Source: a virus. From it: a stretch of 57,017 nucleotides of DNA. Location of the stretch: positions 1-57,017 of the IMG/VR virus record IMGVR_UViG_3300047356_000921. One strand, 5' to 3'. Shown here piece by piece: positions 2,230 through 24,865 of the stretch. The notes under the pieces were generated by a model. It had not been told where the DNA came from. It worked only from the letters and a program-made list of their open reading frames with translations, and did no database searches. A program made the translations under genes and the position numbers. Numbering within the stretch: the stretch's first letter is position 1; each line of letters starts with the position of its first letter.

Positions 2230-3237
2230 ATGAAAGTACTCATTGCCCTATTATCACTAGCATTGCTAGGCGGGTGTGCTATGAATCCTAGTTTACAAAC
2301 GTTAAGAGATTCAGAGACGTCACCTGTAGTACAGGAATCACCAATCGCAGAACGATTAGAAGATGTACCTGTAATTGATGGACCCAAGATTACAATAGCT
2401 GTTTATAGTTTTAGTGATAAAACAGGACAGCGAAAACCAAGCGATGCTGTATCAAATTTGAGTTCAGCAGTAACACAAGGTGGTGAAGTTTGGGTAATCA
2501 AAGCTCTGCAAGATATAGGAAACGAAGGGTGGTTCGAAGTAGTTGAACGAGTAGGGATGGATAATCTCATTAAAGAAAGACAACTTATTCGACAAACACG
2601 TGAGCAGTACGAAGGCAAAGAAGCTACTAATTTACAGCCGTTGTTATTCGCAGGGCTTATTTTAGAGGGAGGCATAATTGGGTATGACAGCAATGTTGCT
2701 GTTGGAGGTGCAGGCGCAAGATGGCTAGGCGTTGGTTCTCAAACTCAATACAGAATAGATACCGTTACTATAGCATTAAGAATTGTTAGTGTAAGTACGG
2801 GGAAGGTGCTTTTAAGCATAGCAACTGAAAAAACGATTGCAAGCCATCAGTCCGGAGCGGACATATTTAAGTTCCTAGATATGGGGACTAGATTGTTAGA
2901 AACTGAGATAGGATTTTCAGTTAACGAACCGGTAAACTACGCTACAAGGGCTGCCATCGAGCAGGCAGTAGTTGAGTTAGTTTACGAAGGAGAAAAAAAG
3001 GGACTTTGGAAGTTTAAAGATAGAACATACACAGGAACATTACCTGCAACTAGACCATTAAAACTAAGCGAAGCATTAGAAAAATGGCCAGATCAAAGAT
3101 TGTATTGTGATGCAACTGATATGTGTTATCCGGCAACGGCTAAAGATAACAACCAAATGAGGGATAATAATGAAGTTAAAGATGTTAACATTGTCGTTGA
3201 TGACACTGCTAATGACGACTCCGGCTCTGGCGAATGA
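2230..3237 (+). CDS. csgG: CsgG-like outer-membrane curli secretion channel lipoprotein
   Basis: CsgG forms a nonameric outer-membrane pore for unfolded curlin subunits. The ATG at 2230 gives a lipoprotein signal with lipobox LGGC; a start at 2209 would add seven residues inside csgF and is less likely. Family motifs follow in order: IAVYSFSDKTGQ, a KP...NLSSAV loop, GWFEVVERVGMDNLIKERQ, LEGGIIGYDSN, GAGARWLGVGSQTQYRID, VSTGKVLLSIATEKTI, NEPVNYATRAAIEQAV and KGLWKF. Relative to E. coli, the constriction loop keeps Asn but has Leu for Phe56 and Ser/Asp at the Tyr51 position. About 60 extra C-terminal residues are acidic and overlap the next gene. Confidence 0.94.
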   Translation: MKVLIALLSLALLGGCAMNPSLQTLRDSETSPVVQESPIAERLEDVPVIDGPKITIAVYSFSDKTGQRKPSDAVSNLSSAVTQGGEVWVIKALQDIGNEGWFEVVERVGMDNLIKERQLIRQTREQYEGKEATNLQPLLFAGLILEGGIIGYDSNVAVGGAGARWLGVGSQTQYRIDTVTIALRIVSVSTGKVLLSIATEKTIASHQSGADIFKFLDMGTRLLETEIGFSVNEPVNYATRAAIEQAVVELVYEGEKKGLWKFKDRTYTGTLPATRPLKLSEALEKWPDQRLYCDATDMCYPATAKDNNQMRDNNEVKDVNIVVDDTANDDSGSGE

Positions 3238-3922
3238 TATCTATATTACACAAGTAGGTGATAATTTAGATTTAGACATTACACAAGACGGGTCTGATAA
3301 CCAGTTTGGTGATAGCACTACCGGTGTTTCACTAGCAGGTGACGGCATGGTGTTCTCAATTACACAAACGGGCGACAGCAATGATATTGCGGCAGTTATT
3401 AATGGTGATTCATATACTGGTACATGGGTATTTACTGGTAACACAAACGTAGTAGATTTTAAATGTGACAGTCTAGGTACCGCAGGTGCAGGCAACTGTG
3501 AATCTGTTGATCTTGATATTACTACTACAGGTGATGACAATACTTTTAAATTTTATATAGGCGAAAACTCAGACGCTGAAGGGGCTGATGTAACATTTAC
3601 TGTTACTGGCGACGACAACGTAGTTGATGCTGATATAGATGGTATAGATTCAACTGTAACCGTTGTAGTAAACAACAGTACTAGTTTACACTCTGGTGGT
3701 GCTACTAGTGCAACTGACAATACCTTAAGTTCAACTAATGCAGGTAACATTATTGATATAGACGTAGATGGTGCTGGTGATGCAAACGGACACTTGATAG
3801 ACTTAACAGTCACAGGTGGAGGTAATGTATTCACTATTACACAAAGCGGCACAGGCGATAACGTAATTGATGCAACTTTTACAACTGAAGGTAGTACAGT
3901 AGACATTACGCAGAGCGATTAG
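3170..3922 (+). CDS. Secreted curlin-repeat protein 1 (CsgA/CsgB-like)
   Basis: A 250-residue protein with a Sec signal peptide ending ALA, followed by mature ANDIYITQVGDNL. Curlin-type units (x-x-Q-x-G-D-x-N) recur, for example QVGDNLDLDITQDGSDN, SITQTGDSNDI, VTGDDNVVDADI and TQSGTGDNVID. The composition is Gly/Asp/Asn/Thr rich with alternating hydrophobics, as expected of a beta-helical amyloid. Its first 68 bases, coding only the signal peptide, overlap the end of csgG. It has one Cys pair. It is the probable substrate of the CsgG/CsgF pore; whether it is the major subunit or the nucleator cannot be told. Confidence 0.85.
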   Translation: MKLKMLTLSLMTLLMTTPALANDIYITQVGDNLDLDITQDGSDNQFGDSTTGVSLAGDGMVFSITQTGDSNDIAAVINGDSYTGTWVFTGNTNVVDFKCDSLGTAGAGNCESVDLDITTTGDDNTFKFYIGENSDAEGADVTFTVTGDDNVVDADIDGIDSTVTVVVNNSTSLHSGGATSATDNTLSSTNAGNIIDIDVDGAGDANGHLIDLTVTGGGNVFTITQSGTGDNVIDATFTTEGSTVDITQSD

Positions 3923-3923
3923 T

Positions 3924-5060
3924 ATGAAAATACTAATTCTCGTTTTATCCGTTTTTCTGGCTAGTTCAACGTTGGCGAATGCCCAAATAGGCACCGTAAC
4001 AGAACTTAACGGAGTTGGACAGATAAAACGTGACAAGGATATAATAGGCAACGACACAGGCACGTCTGTTGAACAAATGGACGAAGCAATTACAGAAAAG
4101 GGCAGGATGCGTATTGACTTTGTTGATGACACACGATTAGATGTTGTTGATCATAGCAGAGTAGTTATTGACGAATTTATATACGATCCTGCTACAGGCA
4201 CAGGGAAACTAGATATTAGAGCAAGCATTGGTGCTGTTCGATATGCTAGTGGACAGATTGCCAAAAACTCAAGACAGCAAGTAAGATTAAGAACTCCAAC
4301 AGCAACTATTTCTGTACGTGGCACAGACTTTGCTATGATTGTAAATGAAATTGGCGAAAGTTATGTAACATTACTACCTAGTTGCGAATATGACGGAATG
4401 GGCAACGAGCTCGAATGTGTAACCGGAGAAATTAAAGTAGAAAATGACGGCGGCTATGTTATTATGAATCAAGCATTTCAAATGACTCGTGTTAATAGTT
4501 ACAGCCAGCGTCCTAGTCCTCCTGTTATTGTTGACCTTACCGAACCACAGATTACAGGTATGCTTATAGTAAGACGCAAAGATCCTATTACTACAGCACA
4601 AGAAAAAGTATATCTAGAACAAAGAAAAACAGACATATTAAGTTTTGATTTTTTAAAGTTTGACGAATTAGAACAAGATGAACTTGTAGACAGCATCAAA
4701 GACATATGGGTAACAGAGTTAGATAGAGGTGCTGACTATTATCTACGTGAACAGTTGCTAAATATGATTGACGAGTTAAACAAGGCCTTATTAAAAAGTT
4801 TTCAAGATGAGCTACAAAAACAAAACGAAGAATTTTTTAAAGATAGAGCGTTAGGCTACGATGAAGATACAGGCATGTTTATAGATTTTGAAGATCCGAT
4901 GTGGCACATACGCAGACAGGATGTTAGTATAGAGAATACAATAGACATATATCTACACAACGAGTATGGATATAAACTTAATATAGAGCAGGGTGATGAA
5001 GCAGTATACGATTATATGCTTGGCGTTGGCAACAACAATATTAATATCAAACAACGCTAG
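3924..5060 (+). CDS. Secreted FecR-domain protein
   Basis: A 378-residue protein with a Sec signal peptide (cleavage near ANA/QIG, about residue 20). Residues about 22-200 form a FecR domain: early GxVxxLxGxxxIKR, GRMRIDFVDDTRLDVVDHS, IGAVRYASGQI, and the diagnostic RTPTATISVRGTDFAMIV. A charged helical region (about 220-320) follows, then a tail ending NNNINIKQR that echoes curlin strand units. There is no transmembrane segment, so unlike classical FecR it is not an inner-membrane anti-sigma sensor. Its place between two curlin genes suggests a periplasmic or surface scaffold for the fibre. It starts one base after curlin 1. Confidence 0.85.
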   Translation: MKILILVLSVFLASSTLANAQIGTVTELNGVGQIKRDKDIIGNDTGTSVEQMDEAITEKGRMRIDFVDDTRLDVVDHSRVVIDEFIYDPATGTGKLDIRASIGAVRYASGQIAKNSRQQVRLRTPTATISVRGTDFAMIVNEIGESYVTLLPSCEYDGMGNELECVTGEIKVENDGGYVIMNQAFQMTRVNSYSQRPSPPVIVDLTEPQITGMLIVRRKDPITTAQEKVYLEQRKTDILSFDFLKFDELEQDELVDSIKDIWVTELDRGADYYLREQLLNMIDELNKALLKSFQDELQKQNEEFFKDRALGYDEDTGMFIDFEDPMWHIRRQDVSIENTIDIYLHNEYGYKLNIEQGDEAVYDYMLGVGNNNINIKQR

Positions 5061-5709
5061 GGCAAATGACATTTATATCAACCAAGTAGGTGACAACTTG
5101 GAAATGCAAGTTATACAAGATGGCGATAACAACTATTTCCAGTATTGTACAAACGGCAATGATTCAAATTGTAAAGATGTAAACGGCAACGCACACGGTC
5201 GGGCAGACGGATTTACTAGTGACGATGCTATAGTGAATAGTGGTACAGTTGGCAACGATAATAAAGTTGTTGTAGCACACGCTACTGGAACAGGCAATAA
5301 TAACATCAATGAAACAAACATTGGAATCATAGGTGATCGCAACAAAGTACAAAACTTCTTTTCAAACCACAGTAGTGGAAGCCACAATTATAGTAATCAA
5401 GATTGGGGCGGTACTAAAGAAACTAATATTATGATTACAGGCGATGACAATTATGTAAAGGTTGACAGCGATAGTTATGGAGAAGTATATAGTGAGATTG
5501 AAGTAACTGGTGATGACAACAGTGTAATACTATGGCAAAGGTCAATGAATAATAGTGCTTCAATAGACGTAACCAATGCAGGCGGCCCTAGTACTGTTAC
5601 TGTTCATCAACTTGGTAGTAGTTACCAAGACACAGGATTAAACACATACGGTATTTCACAGACATGCGCTAATGCCAATGGTTGTTCAGTCACTGTGACG
5701 CAAAACTAA
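4996..5709 (+). CDS. Secreted curlin-repeat protein 2 (CsgA/CsgB-like)
   Basis: About 237 residues. ATG 4996 is preferred; a GTG at 4993 is also in frame. The signal peptide ends ARA, and mature ANDIYINQVGDNL nearly repeats the start of curlin protein 1. Units such as VIQDGDNNYF, VGNDNKVVV, IMITGDDNYVKV, IEVTGDDNSVIL and SVTVTQN recur to the C-terminus. It has two Cys pairs (CTNGNDSNC and a C-terminal pair). The signal peptide is coded within the 3' end of the FecR gene. With curlin 1 it probably forms the amyloid pair (main subunit and nucleator). Confidence 0.85.
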   Translation: MKQYTIICLALATTILISNNARANDIYINQVGDNLEMQVIQDGDNNYFQYCTNGNDSNCKDVNGNAHGRADGFTSDDAIVNSGTVGNDNKVVVAHATGTGNNNINETNIGIIGDRNKVQNFFSNHSSGSHNYSNQDWGGTKETNIMITGDDNYVKVDSDSYGEVYSEIEVTGDDNSVILWQRSMNNSASIDVTNAGGPSTVTVHQLGSSYQDTGLNTYGISQTCANANGCSVTVTQN

Positions 5710-6718: not shown

Positions 6719-8773
6719 ATGAAAAGATTACTAAGCCCTTGGTGGGCATTATTAACACTAGGGGTATTAGTATATGCGTTTGCAAATCCTAATAATTTTT
6801 TGCAAAGTATCAAACTAAATTACTTTGATCAACTGATTATTAATCAAGAACCAACGCAAAACAATATCTTTGTAGCAGAAATTGACGATGCTACTATAGA
6901 CAAGTTTGGACAATATCCTTTTCCAAGACACATATACTCAAACATTATTATTGACTTATATGACAAAGGAGCAGGGCTAGTTGTATGGAATATAATGATG
7001 CCCGAAGCAGACCGATTAGGTGGTGACGCTGATCTTGCAACAACAATGAGTCAGCTACCAGTTATACTAGCAAGTCGTCCCAGCGACAAAACAAAGAACG
7101 AACCTATAAATCCTGGGGCCGCAATATTACAAGCACAGTTTTTAGATCGCATATTACCATACGGCGGTATTATTGCAAATATTCCAGAACTTGAAAATAA
7201 TAGTGTTGGGGCAGGAATCGTTTCAACTGAGCCGGAGATAGATGGTGTTGTAAGACGCATGCCAACTGTCGCTGTCGTAGACGGTACACTATATCCTAGC
7301 CTAGCATTAGAAACTCTACGTGTTATTGCAGGCGATCCTAATTTCCAAATTAAACTTAATCAGTTTGGTATTGAAAAAATGCGTATACCAAACTTTGGTC
7401 CAATACCTACTGACTCAGAAGGGCGTGTATGGATAGACTGGAGTCAACGTTCTAATCGTATAAGCGTAACTGACTTATATAAAGAAGATGGTATAATGTC
7501 ATTTCAAGGTGCAATAGTAATAGTAGATGTTACAGCAACAGGTGTAGCAAACCCTGTTCCAACAGCAATAGGCGCACAATATGCAGGAACTACACAAGCG
7601 GCTGTACTAGGTACAATGTTTAATGGTACAAATATACAGCGTCCTGATTGGGCACCTGATGCAGAACTGTTAGCACTAGCTATAGGTGGGTTATTGCTTA
7701 TACTACTCAGCCGTTGGATGTGGTTAGGTCTTGTTACAACAGTTGTAATGATAGGCGGAGTTGTACCTTACAGCATATATGCGTACACAACAGAAAAGTT
7801 TCTTTTAGATGTTACAGCACCTGTTATAGTATTTGTAATAATTGCATTGCAAGTATATGGTATCAAATTTGTACGAGAATTCTTAGAAAAGCAAGCAATA
7901 AAGAAACAGTTCGCAGGATACGCATCACCTACTGTAGTACGCTTATTACAGGAAAATCCGGCACTTATTAAAGACGGTATGAAACGAGAAGTAAGCATAC
8001 TGTTCTCAGACTTGCGTGGCTTTACTCCACTAGGTGAATCATTTGGTGATGACGTAAAAGGACTTACCAAAATAATGAATGGCTATATGGATGCGATTAC
8101 ACAACCGGTGCTAGACGCAGACGGAATGATAATCAAGTATATTGGTGATGCTAGTATGCACATACACAACGCACCTATAGATGATCCTCATCATCCACGA
8201 ACCGCAGTGGAGACAGGATTATTAATGTTAAAAGCGGTGGAGAAGTTTAATGATAAAATTACAGCAGAAGGACGACCACCTGTCGGTATGGGTGCGGGAA
8301 TCAATACAGGACTGGGCTATCTTGGAGAAATGGGTAGCACCGCAAGACATTCGTACGATGTACTTGGAGACGCAGTCAGTACCGCCGCAAGAATCGAAAG
8401 CAAATGTAAAGAATACGGATGTCTACTCTTAGTTGGAGATGCAACTTATCAACAAACTAAAGACAACTTCTTTTACTTAAAGGTAGATGACTTGCAAGTA
8501 AAAGGTAAAAGTGTAGGATTAAGTATATACACTGTACTTGATGTTAAAGGAACACACGCCCAAAAGAAAAGTCAAGAAATGCACGAGCGTATGCACGATG
8601 CATATAGATCACAGAAGTTTGATGAAGCAATATATATTTGCGAAAGATTAAAACGTCATTTTGATGGCAAGATGGAAGGCTATTATGACATGTGGATTGA
8701 ACGTTGTGAGTTCCAAAAAACTCAAGATTTACCGTCTGATTGGAATGGTGTGTTTATTGCTACAAGTAAGTAG
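6719..8773 (+). CDS. CHASE2-domain membrane class III adenylate/guanylate cyclase
   Basis: A 684-residue protein with a full bacterial receptor-cyclase layout: transmembrane helix (about 8-22), extracytoplasmic CHASE2 sensor (about 45-290; EIDDATIDKFGQYPFPR, GAGLVVWNIMMPEAD), three helices (about 313-378), then a class III catalytic domain (about 422-607). Metal-binding D431 (FSDLRGFT) and D477 (KYIGD) are present. So are purine-specifying K473 and D547, which suggest ATP, and transition-state R558. The usual Asn of VNxAxR is Ser554 (AVSTAAR), so activity may be reduced or altered. Product is probably cAMP, but this is unproven. A late promoter precedes it. Phage-borne receptor cyclases are rare. 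Confidence 0.93.
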   Translation: MKRLLSPWWALLTLGVLVYAFANPNNFLQSIKLNYFDQLIINQEPTQNNIFVAEIDDATIDKFGQYPFPRHIYSNIIIDLYDKGAGLVVWNIMMPEADRLGGDADLATTMSQLPVILASRPSDKTKNEPINPGAAILQAQFLDRILPYGGIIANIPELENNSVGAGIVSTEPEIDGVVRRMPTVAVVDGTLYPSLALETLRVIAGDPNFQIKLNQFGIEKMRIPNFGPIPTDSEGRVWIDWSQRSNRISVTDLYKEDGIMSFQGAIVIVDVTATGVANPVPTAIGAQYAGTTQAAVLGTMFNGTNIQRPDWAPDAELLALAIGGLLLILLSRWMWLGLVTTVVMIGGVVPYSIYAYTTEKFLLDVTAPVIVFVIIALQVYGIKFVREFLEKQAIKKQFAGYASPTVVRLLQENPALIKDGMKREVSILFSDLRGFTPLGESFGDDVKGLTKIMNGYMDAITQPVLDADGMIIKYIGDASMHIHNAPIDDPHHPRTAVETGLLMLKAVEKFNDKITAEGRPPVGMGAGINTGLGYLGEMGSTARHSYDVLGDAVSTAARIESKCKEYGCLLLVGDATYQQTKDNFFYLKVDDLQVKGKSVGLSIYTVLDVKGTHAQKKSQEMHERMHDAYRSQKFDEAIYICERLKRHFDGKMEGYYDMWIERCEFQKTQDLPSDWNGVFIATSK

Positions 8774-23697: not shown

Positions 23698-23871
23698 ATG
23701 TTTAGTGCAGTCAAAGAAATAATTTGGCATTTAACGTGCAAGGGTTGTAGCAATTGGTTTACATATGCTACAATGGAAGATAAGTATTGCATTGAACGAA
23801 CAACATTTCATTGTCCACACTGCGGGAAAAAAGGCAGAGTAGATAAAAAAGATGTTGACATAACAGAATAA
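23698..23871 (+). CDS. Zinc-ribbon protein, 57 residues
   Basis: Two zinc knuckles, CKGC and CPHC, 25 residues apart: LTCKGCSNWFTYAT ... HCPHCGKKGRV. A single compact ribbon typical of small nucleic-acid- or protein-binding factors. The -35 of the next promoter lies in its 3' end. No family recognised. Confidence 0.65.
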   Translation: MFSAVKEIIWHLTCKGCSNWFTYATMEDKYCIERTTFHCPHCGKKGRVDKKDVDITE

Positions 23872-23888
23872 AGAGTGTATTATAAATA
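23855..23888 (+). promoter_or_regulatory. Fused early and late promoter
   Basis: TTGACA (23855-23860), 17 bp, TATTAT (23878-23883), overlapped by a perfect T4 late octamer TATAAATA (23881-23888). Drives the leader RNA at 23890 and possibly the Trp-Gln-Cys tRNA group. Confidence 0.7.
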
Positions 23889-23914
23889 CATAATAAGAAA
23901 TAAGGAATACTAAC

Positions 23915-23983
23915 GTGTTAAGAACTGTACAACAATCGTCATTACAGAATTGGTGCCCAATACATGGAAGGGGTATGTCTTAA
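23915..23983 (+). CDS. Candidate 22-residue leader peptide
   Basis: GTG start with AAGGA eight bases upstream. The peptide VLRTVQQSSLQNWCPIHGRG then MS contains Gln (three codons), Trp and Cys. The three tRNA genes directly downstream of the terminator are Trp, Gln and Cys. It could be a stalling sensor for those charged tRNAs, or chance. Length and lack of homologues keep confidence low. Confidence 0.35.
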   Translation: MLRTVQQSSLQNWCPIHGRGMS

Positions 23984-24012
23984 CGCGACTTTATAAAAAA
24001 GTTATTTTAAGC

Positions 24013-24047
24013 AAGCCCCTAGTGTTAATTCATTAGGGGCTTTTTTT
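24013..24047 (+). terminator. Rho-independent terminator
   Basis: AAGCCCCTAGTG pairs with CATTAGGGGCTT around TTAATT (one mismatch), followed by a run of seven T. tRNA-Trp starts at the next base, so the T-run abuts the mature tRNA 5' end. Confidence 0.88.
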
Positions 24048-24121
24048 GTCGGTGAAGTGTTATGGTAGCACGGCGGTCTCCAAAACCGCAAGCGGGGGTT
24101 CGACTCCCTCCACCGATGCCA
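24048..24121 (+). tRNA. tRNA-Trp, anticodon CCA
   Basis: Acceptor GTCGGTG/CACCGAT (first pair G-U), anticodon stem GCGGT/ACCGC with loop CTCCAAA, coded CCA. Confidence 0.95.
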
Positions 24122-24126
24122 ATTAC

Positions 24127-24201
24127 TGGGGAATAGTCTAGAGGTAGGACGACTGTTTTTGATACAGTAGATCGTAGGTTCGAATCCTACTTCCCCAGCC
24201 A
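24127..24201 (+). tRNA. tRNA-Gln, anticodon UUG
   Basis: Acceptor TGGGGAA/TTCCCCA (U1-A72 as usual for Gln), anticodon stem ACTGT/ACAGT with loop TTTTGAT, coded CCA. Confidence 0.95.
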
Positions 24202-24202
24202 A

Positions 24203-24276
24203 CACTAAGTGGCAGAGTGGCTATGCAACGGACTGCAACTCCGTGTACGCCGGTTCGATTCCGGCCTTAGTGTCCA
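24203..24276 (+). tRNA. tRNA-Cys, anticodon GCA
   Basis: Acceptor CACTAAG/CTTAGTG, discriminator U as in Cys tRNAs, anticodon stem ACGGA/TCCGT with loop CTGCAAC, coded CCA. Confidence 0.94.
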
Positions 24277-24283
24277 TTTTCGG

Positions 24284-24312
24284 TTGACATAGTATCAAAT
24301 ATGTCGTATAAT
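24284..24312 (+). promoter_or_regulatory. Perfect consensus sigma70 promoter
   Basis: TTGACA (24284-24289), 17 bp, TATAAT (24307-24312), 35 bp before the phosphoesterase gene. Confidence 0.88.
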
Positions 24313-24346: not shown

Positions 24347-24865
24347 ATGGCAATATTCGTAATCAGTGACACACACTTTAACCACGCAAACATCCTTGAC
24401 TTTAAGGATTACGTTGGTAAGCCGTGTAGAGAGTTTGATAGTGTTGATCAAATGAACCAGTGTATGTTAGACAACTGGAACGATACAGTTGGTCCTAACG
24501 ACACTGTTATTCACTGTGGTGACGTTCTTTTTGGTATGGACAAAGTTGATTGGTTAACAGCAAACTTTGCAAAGTTGCCTGGTAAGAAAAGACTTGTTCT
24601 TGGTAACCACGACAATGTAAAGCACCTTGCACCGTTCTTCAAAGATATCCAGTTATGGATTGATATGAGTGATAAAGGTTTAATCTTTACTCACACACCT
24701 TTGCACCCTAGCACACTTGCTGAGAAGCATAGGTTTGGTGACGGCGACTTGTTGAACGTACACGGACATATCCACACTAATCCTTCACCCGAAGGACCTT
24801 ACAAGTGTGTTTGTGTTGAGCAGATCAACTTTACTCCGATAGACATAGATAGTTTGAGGGCGTGA
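24347..24865 (+). CDS. Calcineurin-like metallophosphoesterase
   Basis: 172 residues with the metal-binding blocks in order: SDTHFNH (D8, H10), HCGDVLFG, LGNHDN, FTHTPLH and VHGHIHTNP. This is the small YfcE/phage-type class acting on phosphodiesters or nucleotides. The first gene after a perfect early promoter, it begins a run reaching the DNA ligase. The substrate is not predictable. Confidence 0.9.
   Translation: MAIFVISDTHFNHANILDFKDYVGKPCREFDSVDQMNQCMLDNWNDTVGPNDTVIHCGDVLFGMDKVDWLTANFAKLPGKKRLVLGNHDNVKHLAPFFKDIQLWIDMSDKGLIFTHTPLHPSTLAEKHRFGDGDLLNVHGHIHTNPSPEGPYKCVCVEQINFTPIDIDSLRA

Follow-up and report, generated by a model that had tools for sequence, protein, structure and literature searches.

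Why should a phage place a Rho-independent terminator directly in front of its own tRNA genes, and why should a short reading frame upstream of this terminator hold codons for the very amino acids carried by those tRNAs? This question is raised by the tRNA-Trp-Gln-Cys genes of IMGVR_UViG_3300047356_000921, a viral contig of 57,017 bases which was analysed as a whole and is hereafter called the window. A preliminary description of the sequence had suggested that ribosome stalling at the Gln, Trp and Cys codons of the leader might raise expression of the matching tRNAs, and had allowed for chance as the cause of the correspondence. On the basis of comparative sequence statistics and RNA folding, we consider that the element is probably (at about 0.88) a ribosome-mediated leader-peptide transcription attenuator of a phage tRNA operon and one of a widespread class.

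Organization of the leader in the window

The window carries seven tRNA genes at 22.5–24.3 kb and one more at 56.3 kb. Trp-Gln-Cys forms the last group of the 22.5–24.3 kb cluster; in a terminator scan none of the other groups of this cluster was preceded by a terminator of similar strength. The features of the leader are collected in Table 1. The strong promoter, the 22-codon GTG frame with its AAGGA, the terminator touching tRNA-Trp, the 10-bp closing stem (helix P1 of Table 1) and the three tRNA isotypes had all been noted in the preliminary description, and all were recovered. Within the frame, the three Gln codons start at 23930, 23933 and 23945, the single Trp codon TGG is at 23951-23953 and the single Cys codon TGC at 23954-23956. 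The proposed pairing of AGGGG (23969-23973) with CCCCT (24016-24020) is likewise feasible. The segments have the arrangement expected of an attenuator: a short frame with start codon and ribosome binding site lies between promoter and terminator, control codons for the operon's amino acids lie 5' of the antiterminator strand, the predicted antiterminator and the intrinsic terminator are mutually exclusive, and the stop codon is placed where a terminating ribosome would cover the antiterminator strand.

Table 1. Features of the putative attenuator and of the tRNA genes that follow it (window coordinates).
Feature	Position	Strand	Basis
Sigma70-type promoter TTGACA-N17-TATTAT	23855..23883	+	11/12 consensus; position kept in relatives
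Shine-Dalgarno AAGGA of leader ORF	23902..23906	+	sequence; conserved in relatives
Helix P1, 5' strand (start-codon region), predicted anti-antiterminator	23914..23923	+	folding; cognate vs swapped z=-8.3, compensatory changes
Leader ORF, GTG start, 22 codons, MLRTVQQSSLQNWCPIHGRGMS, stop TAA 23981-23983	23915..23983	+	sequence; 71 distinct relatives
Control codons CAA CAA (Gln-Gln)	23930..23935	+	match operon's tRNA-Gln(ttg); family Gln-tRNA association p=3e-4
Control codons CAG AAT TGG TGC (Gln-Asn-Trp-Cys)	23945..23956	+	15-24 nt 5' of antiterminator strand
Segment B, antiterminator 5' strand AGGGGT	23969..23974	+	fold pairing with C; B:C z=-17.2, 122 clusters
Predicted antiterminator, B:C enclosing further helices	23969..24020	+	minimum-energy fold, nascent RNA ending at 24024
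Helix P1, 3' strand, overlaps leader stop codon	23978..23987	+	folding; covariation
Intrinsic terminator stem-loop (arms C, D), 12 pairs, 6 GC	24013..24042	+	terminator scan; C:D cognate vs swapped z=-15.9
Terminator T-run, adjoins tRNA-Trp directly	24041..24047	+	sequence, terminator scan
tRNA-Trp(cca)	24048..24121	+	tRNA search
tRNA-Gln(ttg)	24127..24201	+	tRNA search
tRNA-Cys(gca), final member of the putatively regulated group	24203..24276	+	tRNA search

As to the surroundings of the leader, a small zinc-ribbon-like ORF (CxxC...CPHCG, 23698-23871) is found immediately 5', with similar sequence in several relatives and a replacement in others. Just 3' of tRNA-Cys there is a perfect (12/12) sigma70 consensus promoter (24284-24312), which appears to drive the following metallophosphoesterase gene separately from the tRNA group. 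Elsewhere in the window, genes with curlin-like repeats (3170-3922 and 4993-5709) and one for a CHASE2-like/adenylate cyclase-like protein (6719-8773) were recognized by eye only and, judged in this way, would be unusual cargo for a phage contig.

Leader residues follow the tRNA genes in a family of marine phages

The metallophosphoesterase gene downstream of the window's tRNAs (24347-24865) was used to reach 80 loci. In the tRNA groups that adjoin this gene, tRNA-Trp is nearly always first and the later tRNAs vary, while promoter, ORF and terminator recur upstream as in the window. The family itself was fetched with the pattern GGGGYNTGTCTTRAYRYGACTTT, which includes neither control codons nor terminator and covers only sequence between the two; it yielded 71 distinct leaders from marine-phage relatives; the window leader was found neither in annotated phages nor, by exact pattern, in genome contigs. 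All complete ORFs among the 71 have a TGG in frame upstream of the conserved core, a few having a second TGG later, and all 71 leaders are followed by tRNA-Trp, the two apparent exceptions being a tRNA that ARAGORN failed to detect and another truncated at a contig end.

The remaining residues vary with the remaining tRNAs. A leader reading ..SIICWPS.. precedes Trp-Pro-Cys-Ser-Ile (L188), and a relative with a Gly tRNA and no Cys reads ..SIIGWPS.. (L088); ..YLYWCPP.. stands before Trp-Pro-Tyr-Cys (L026) and ..YITYWP.. before Trp-Tyr (L147). When tRNA sets were permuted among 54 distinct family members, the agreement between leader residues and operon tRNAs gave z=6.8, with individual associations for Cys (p=6e-4), Gln (p=3e-4), Tyr (p=1e-3) and Gly (p=2e-3). 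Between close relatives, matching gains of residue and tRNA were concordant in 48 cases and opposite in 10, these pairs not being independent of one another. The preliminary description had regarded relatives with the same leader and other tRNAs as the case that would speak against it; these were looked for, and a difference in the tRNAs tends to be accompanied by a difference in the codons. The match is imperfect, as 23 of the 61 family leaders with Cys have no tRNA-Cys in the adjacent group. We had also considered that, given the varying tRNAs after Trp, only the Trp codon was meaningful and the Gln and Cys matches incidental, an idea overturned by the finding that the other residues vary alongside their tRNAs.

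A difficulty for the attenuator reading is posed by the shortest leaders, such as L083 (W-P-L-R-G-M-S), in which the Trp codon is only ~10 nt from B and a ribosome stalled there might partly mask this strand. A leader more remote from the family but similarly organized (L348:3460-3950; ITWS, GTGGGGTTT/AAAGCCCCAC) has one TGG and precedes tRNA-Thr(tgt)-Ser(tga), with Thr and Ser codons on either side of the Trp codon; tRNA-Trp was not found in this 69.8 kb record. In several relatives (L007, L020, L105, L160) terminator and tRNA-Trp are separated by an inserted element of ~80 nt, the ends of which are inverted (ATGACTACACTACGCC...AGTGTAGT).

The same organization in unrelated phages

Scanning for terminators before tRNA-Trp revealed unrelated phages with the same build and little or no sequence similarity, and an isotype-blind scan, which relies on terminator and T-arm and ignores tRNA type, was carried out in addition. 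The ORF was chosen blind to the tRNAs, as the longest ATG ORF of 10–40 codons ending 5–60 nt before the terminator, and B was taken to be the strand with the best complementarity to the 5' arm of the terminator. The ATG-only rule picked the wrong ORF at the locus of the window itself (L001, where the start is GTG), which adds noise only; ARAGORN missed or misnamed some tRNAs (tRNA-Trp at L142 and L129, and a Trp apparently read as Gln at L251), errors that work against the effect.

The leaders of these phages mirror the tRNA sets of their operons. An operon with four Gln tRNAs is preceded by MNNLVQQVQQQQINLMIDW (..QQVQQQQ..), a Glu, Tyr operon by MATFETYYYEAYEE, a Phe, Glu, Asp operon by MRTINNIFEFDFF, a Thr, Lys, Asn, Arg, Val, Ala, Met, Gly operon by MKNTNKNMTRVAKATTKGGDRNTT and a Pro, Cys, Thr, Phe, Trp, Gln, His, Arg operon by MKKNRQHTWFTFTQCPF. 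At L612 all ten control-region residues (WQNFTNTFEM) match the Glu-Thr-Asn-Trp-Phe-Met-Gln tRNAs, and at L691 the same is true of the ten residues of FNNFTPDQQD. Terminators before tRNA genes are also found where a matching leader is lacking (L196, L201 and most of a tRNA-Thr set).

The statistics, obtained by permuting tRNA sets between clusters from a rough k-mer clustering, show both the correspondence between residues and tRNAs and its placement before B. Matching residues reach 37–46% at -33 to -10 nt from the start of B, against 15–17% after permutation (z 9.7–11.4), and fall to background at B and beyond, while the leader stop codon ends 15–26 nt (interquartile range) after the start of B. 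Over the interval from -36 to -7 nt the match is 0.375 against 0.148 expected (z=17.8, 122 clusters), and in the isotype-blind subset 0.412 against 0.165 (z=13.2, 69 clusters); from 0 to +30 nt there is no excess (z=0.6). The window's control codons at 23945..23956 fall within the zone where matching codons peak. A held-out set, taken from two further scans with the analysis fixed beforehand and discovery-like sequences excluded (34 independent ORFs, 32 clusters), gave 0.500 against 0.186 (z=9.7), with z=-0.8 downstream of B. Since the architecture recurs in over 120 sequence clusters and was confirmed with held-out data, chance no longer stands as the cause. The same scan of cellular sequences returned 27 operons with terminators, a few of which match; they are few and form a weak control.

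As for distribution, the class comprises marine contigs related to the window, contigs resembling Bacteroidota phages (judged from promoter and leader style), many of whose leaders have no obvious Shine-Dalgarno, and huge phages. Two records, LR745206 (634,780 bp) and LR756502 (642,428 bp), which presumably come from the huge-phage tRNA-array study, hold four candidate attenuators each in the 49 kb read per record (L698, LR745206.1:335000-384000; L699, LR756502.1:360000-409000). These genomes are unannotated and have their tRNAs divided into blocks; the candidates precede the blocks His-Phe (with Trp and Lys farther downstream), Arg-Ser, Glu-Tyr and Ile-Gly. Not all members of the class are viral, since a Chitinophagaceae chromosome contig (L582:3900-4600) has leader MNLVLHIQRPLQPGSG before Pro-Gln-His-Leu-Arg tRNAs; the system is present in, or has moved into, cellular genomes. 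By the criteria used, no matching leader was found in the stretches read of XacN1 and crAss001, two cultured phages with many tRNAs, and the 30 kb read of Cellulophaga phage phi14:2 held no tRNA. A different arrangement was noted upstream of tRNA-Trp at L263 and L267, where a 10-bp complement of the terminator arm lies in the last part of a longer reading frame (..NFRVWT*) and is followed by the TGG.

Pairing of the leader RNA and proposed mechanism

Complementarity between leader and terminator is specific to each operon. The last 33 nt of the ORF pair with the terminator arm of their own operon at -11.25 kcal/mol, against -7.81 kcal/mol for swapped partners (z=-17.2, 122 clusters), and the held-out set behaves alike (z=-9.3); the 5' part of the ORF has no operon-specific pairing with this arm (z=-0.7). 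In the marine family B and C are nearly invariant and their covariation is weak (z=-2.2), the terminator arms C and D co-vary (z=-15.9), and the A:B hairpin shows no covariation. Helix P1, which joins the start-codon and stop-codon regions, co-varies as well (z=-8.3), ATG starts going mostly with CGTG, CATG or TGTG and GTG starts with CGCG or CACG; a P1-like helix is also evident across clusters (z=-7.5).

Folding of the window leader with and without a ribosome footprint, as the preliminary description had recommended, gave a probability of 1.0 for B:C when C is transcribed and a Gln, Trp or Cys codon is in the A site, and of 0.0 when the stop codon UAA is in the A site. In the absence of a ribosome and before C is made, the probability of P1 is 0.97–1.0. 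The complete leader at equilibrium always favours the terminator, and antitermination must for this reason be kinetic, as trp attenuation is also understood to be; P1 must act kinetically too, because once C is made and D is not yet, B:C prevails over P1 even without a ribosome.

From these results we infer that the ORF is translated and that stalling on it leads to antitermination, with the following direction of control. Transcription would start at about 23890 and a ribosome would initiate on the leader ORF. With aminoacylated Gln-, Trp- or Cys-tRNA scarce, it would stall at 23930-23956 and leave B (23969-23974) free to pair with C (24015-24020) once this is made, so that no terminator would form and tRNA-Trp-Gln-Cys would be transcribed. 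When the control codons are read fast, the ribosome at the stop codon would cover B, C would pair with D, and transcription would end before tRNA-Trp. If the leader is not translated, P1 would fold first and keep B from C, with termination as well. The net effect would be a feedback in which the operon is turned on whenever its own tRNA species limit decoding, and the comparative data back the early suggestion that stalling at the matching codons may raise tRNA expression.

Alternative explanations

We have considered whether the peptide, rather than the decoding of its codons, could be what matters, as in nascent-peptide arrest of the TnaC/Erm type, where the leader peptide stalls the ribosome on a ligand and the matching residues would be an arrest motif. 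The marine family does keep a W-C/P-P (WCPP-like) motif and a conserved C-terminus, and Pro-Pro is translated slowly by ribosomes (PMC8129111). The conserved C-terminus, however, overlies B and P1 at the RNA level, and from phage to phage the peptides lack a shared arrest sequence and vary according to the tRNAs of the operon. An arrest mechanism gives no reason to expect leaders rich in Q in front of Gln tRNAs, or leaders rich in E and Y in front of Glu and Tyr tRNAs. Among Arg codons of the control region, CGN stands at 16:1 in operons with CGN tRNAs and at 11:20 where there is no Arg tRNA, and the codon box follows the tRNA box (Fisher p=0.008, CGN- vs AGR-tRNA operons), which favours decoding over peptide function without being decisive. 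In the same region the codon-box match for Ser, Leu and Ile was not significant, and over whole ORFs the test was weak. We regard arrest as very unlikely, though less so within the marine family, where the WCPP-like motif is kept.

Slighter still are the chances of a constitutive terminator, which would end an upstream transcript or insulate the tRNA operon, the ORF being a by-product. The terminators without a matching leader at L196 and L201 show that tRNA genes can be preceded in this way, yet a constitutive terminator leaves unexplained the codon/tRNA correspondence, its position and the operon-specific B:C pairing, and in the window the promoter sits directly before the leader.

Direct sensing, by binding of uncharged tRNA to the leader RNA without translation, would suit the fact that the regulated genes are tRNAs and that several leaders hold several anticodon-complementary triplets. 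T-box riboswitches work in this manner, and they resemble the phage leaders in responding to poor tRNA charging by antitermination; unlike these, they bind tRNA directly and need no leader translation. The triplets of the phage leaders, in contrast, belong to the reading frame of a short ORF that has its own start codon, plus a Shine-Dalgarno in the marine family, a T-box would not be expected to have a stop codon placed at B, and neither specifier loop nor T-box bulge was detected, the Rfam T-box model failing to match either at its gathering score or at E<=10. Such sensing is hardly credible here. Equally hard to credit is that leaders and tRNA sets co-vary only through kinship and composition, for although many loci are related and the k-mer clustering is rough, permutation was made between clusters, the correspondence persisted in held-out sequences unlike those of discovery, and the same ORFs have no excess downstream of B.

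Relation to known attenuators and biological meaning

Attenuation by leader translation, the reading we favour, is a known mechanism class represented by the trp and his leaders. The enterobacterial trp/his/leu/thr/phe attenuators (Rfam Trp_leader RF00513, His_leader RF00514) share with the phage elements the promoter, the short ORF with control codons, the stop codon near the antiterminator strand, the mutually exclusive antiterminator and terminator, and an extra helix protecting the terminator if the leader is untranslated. They differ in acting on biosynthesis in place of tRNA genes and in not being set in phages, where one leader may hold codons for up to eight or more amino acids, chosen by the operon's tRNAs. 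No Rfam family scored above cut-off for the window (Trp_leader RF00513, 19.6 bits against a cut-off of 41). The E. coli pheST attenuator, which is ribosome-mediated and controls phenylalanyl-tRNA synthetase, is comparable in that it too adjusts the supply of charged tRNA rather than of an amino acid; its target is a synthetase, in a cell and for a single amino acid, unlike the phage tRNA attenuators.

The candidate attenuated operons of LR745206 and LR756502 belong to the tRNA arrays of huge phages (PMC7162821), and the main text of that article mentions neither attenuators, leader peptides nor terminators. No report of leader-peptide attenuation of phage tRNA genes was found in full-text searches of published, mostly open-access papers. 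The tRNA genes as target, the multi-amino-acid leaders and the viral setting thus appear to be new, which is probable rather than certain.

The reasons for the presence of tRNA genes in phages, and the manner of their control, have long been in question, and the argument is usually made from codon usage. With a switch that specifies its own tRNAs the matter becomes testable, as each leader would state which decoding events the phage monitors; such a switch also offers a route to unannotated regulatory leaders and missed tRNAs. Leader-peptide attenuation would be extended from amino-acid biosynthesis to tRNA genes, to viruses and to the integration of many amino acids. Tentatively, phage tRNA sets may be split into blocks, each with a multi-codon attenuator sensing limitation of its own tRNAs, and the system may have arisen as a means of restoring just those tRNAs which are missing from the host or are destroyed by anticodon nucleases of host defence; it would then be a viral, codon-specific sensor and repair circuit, and possibly a sensor for defence systems that cut tRNAs.
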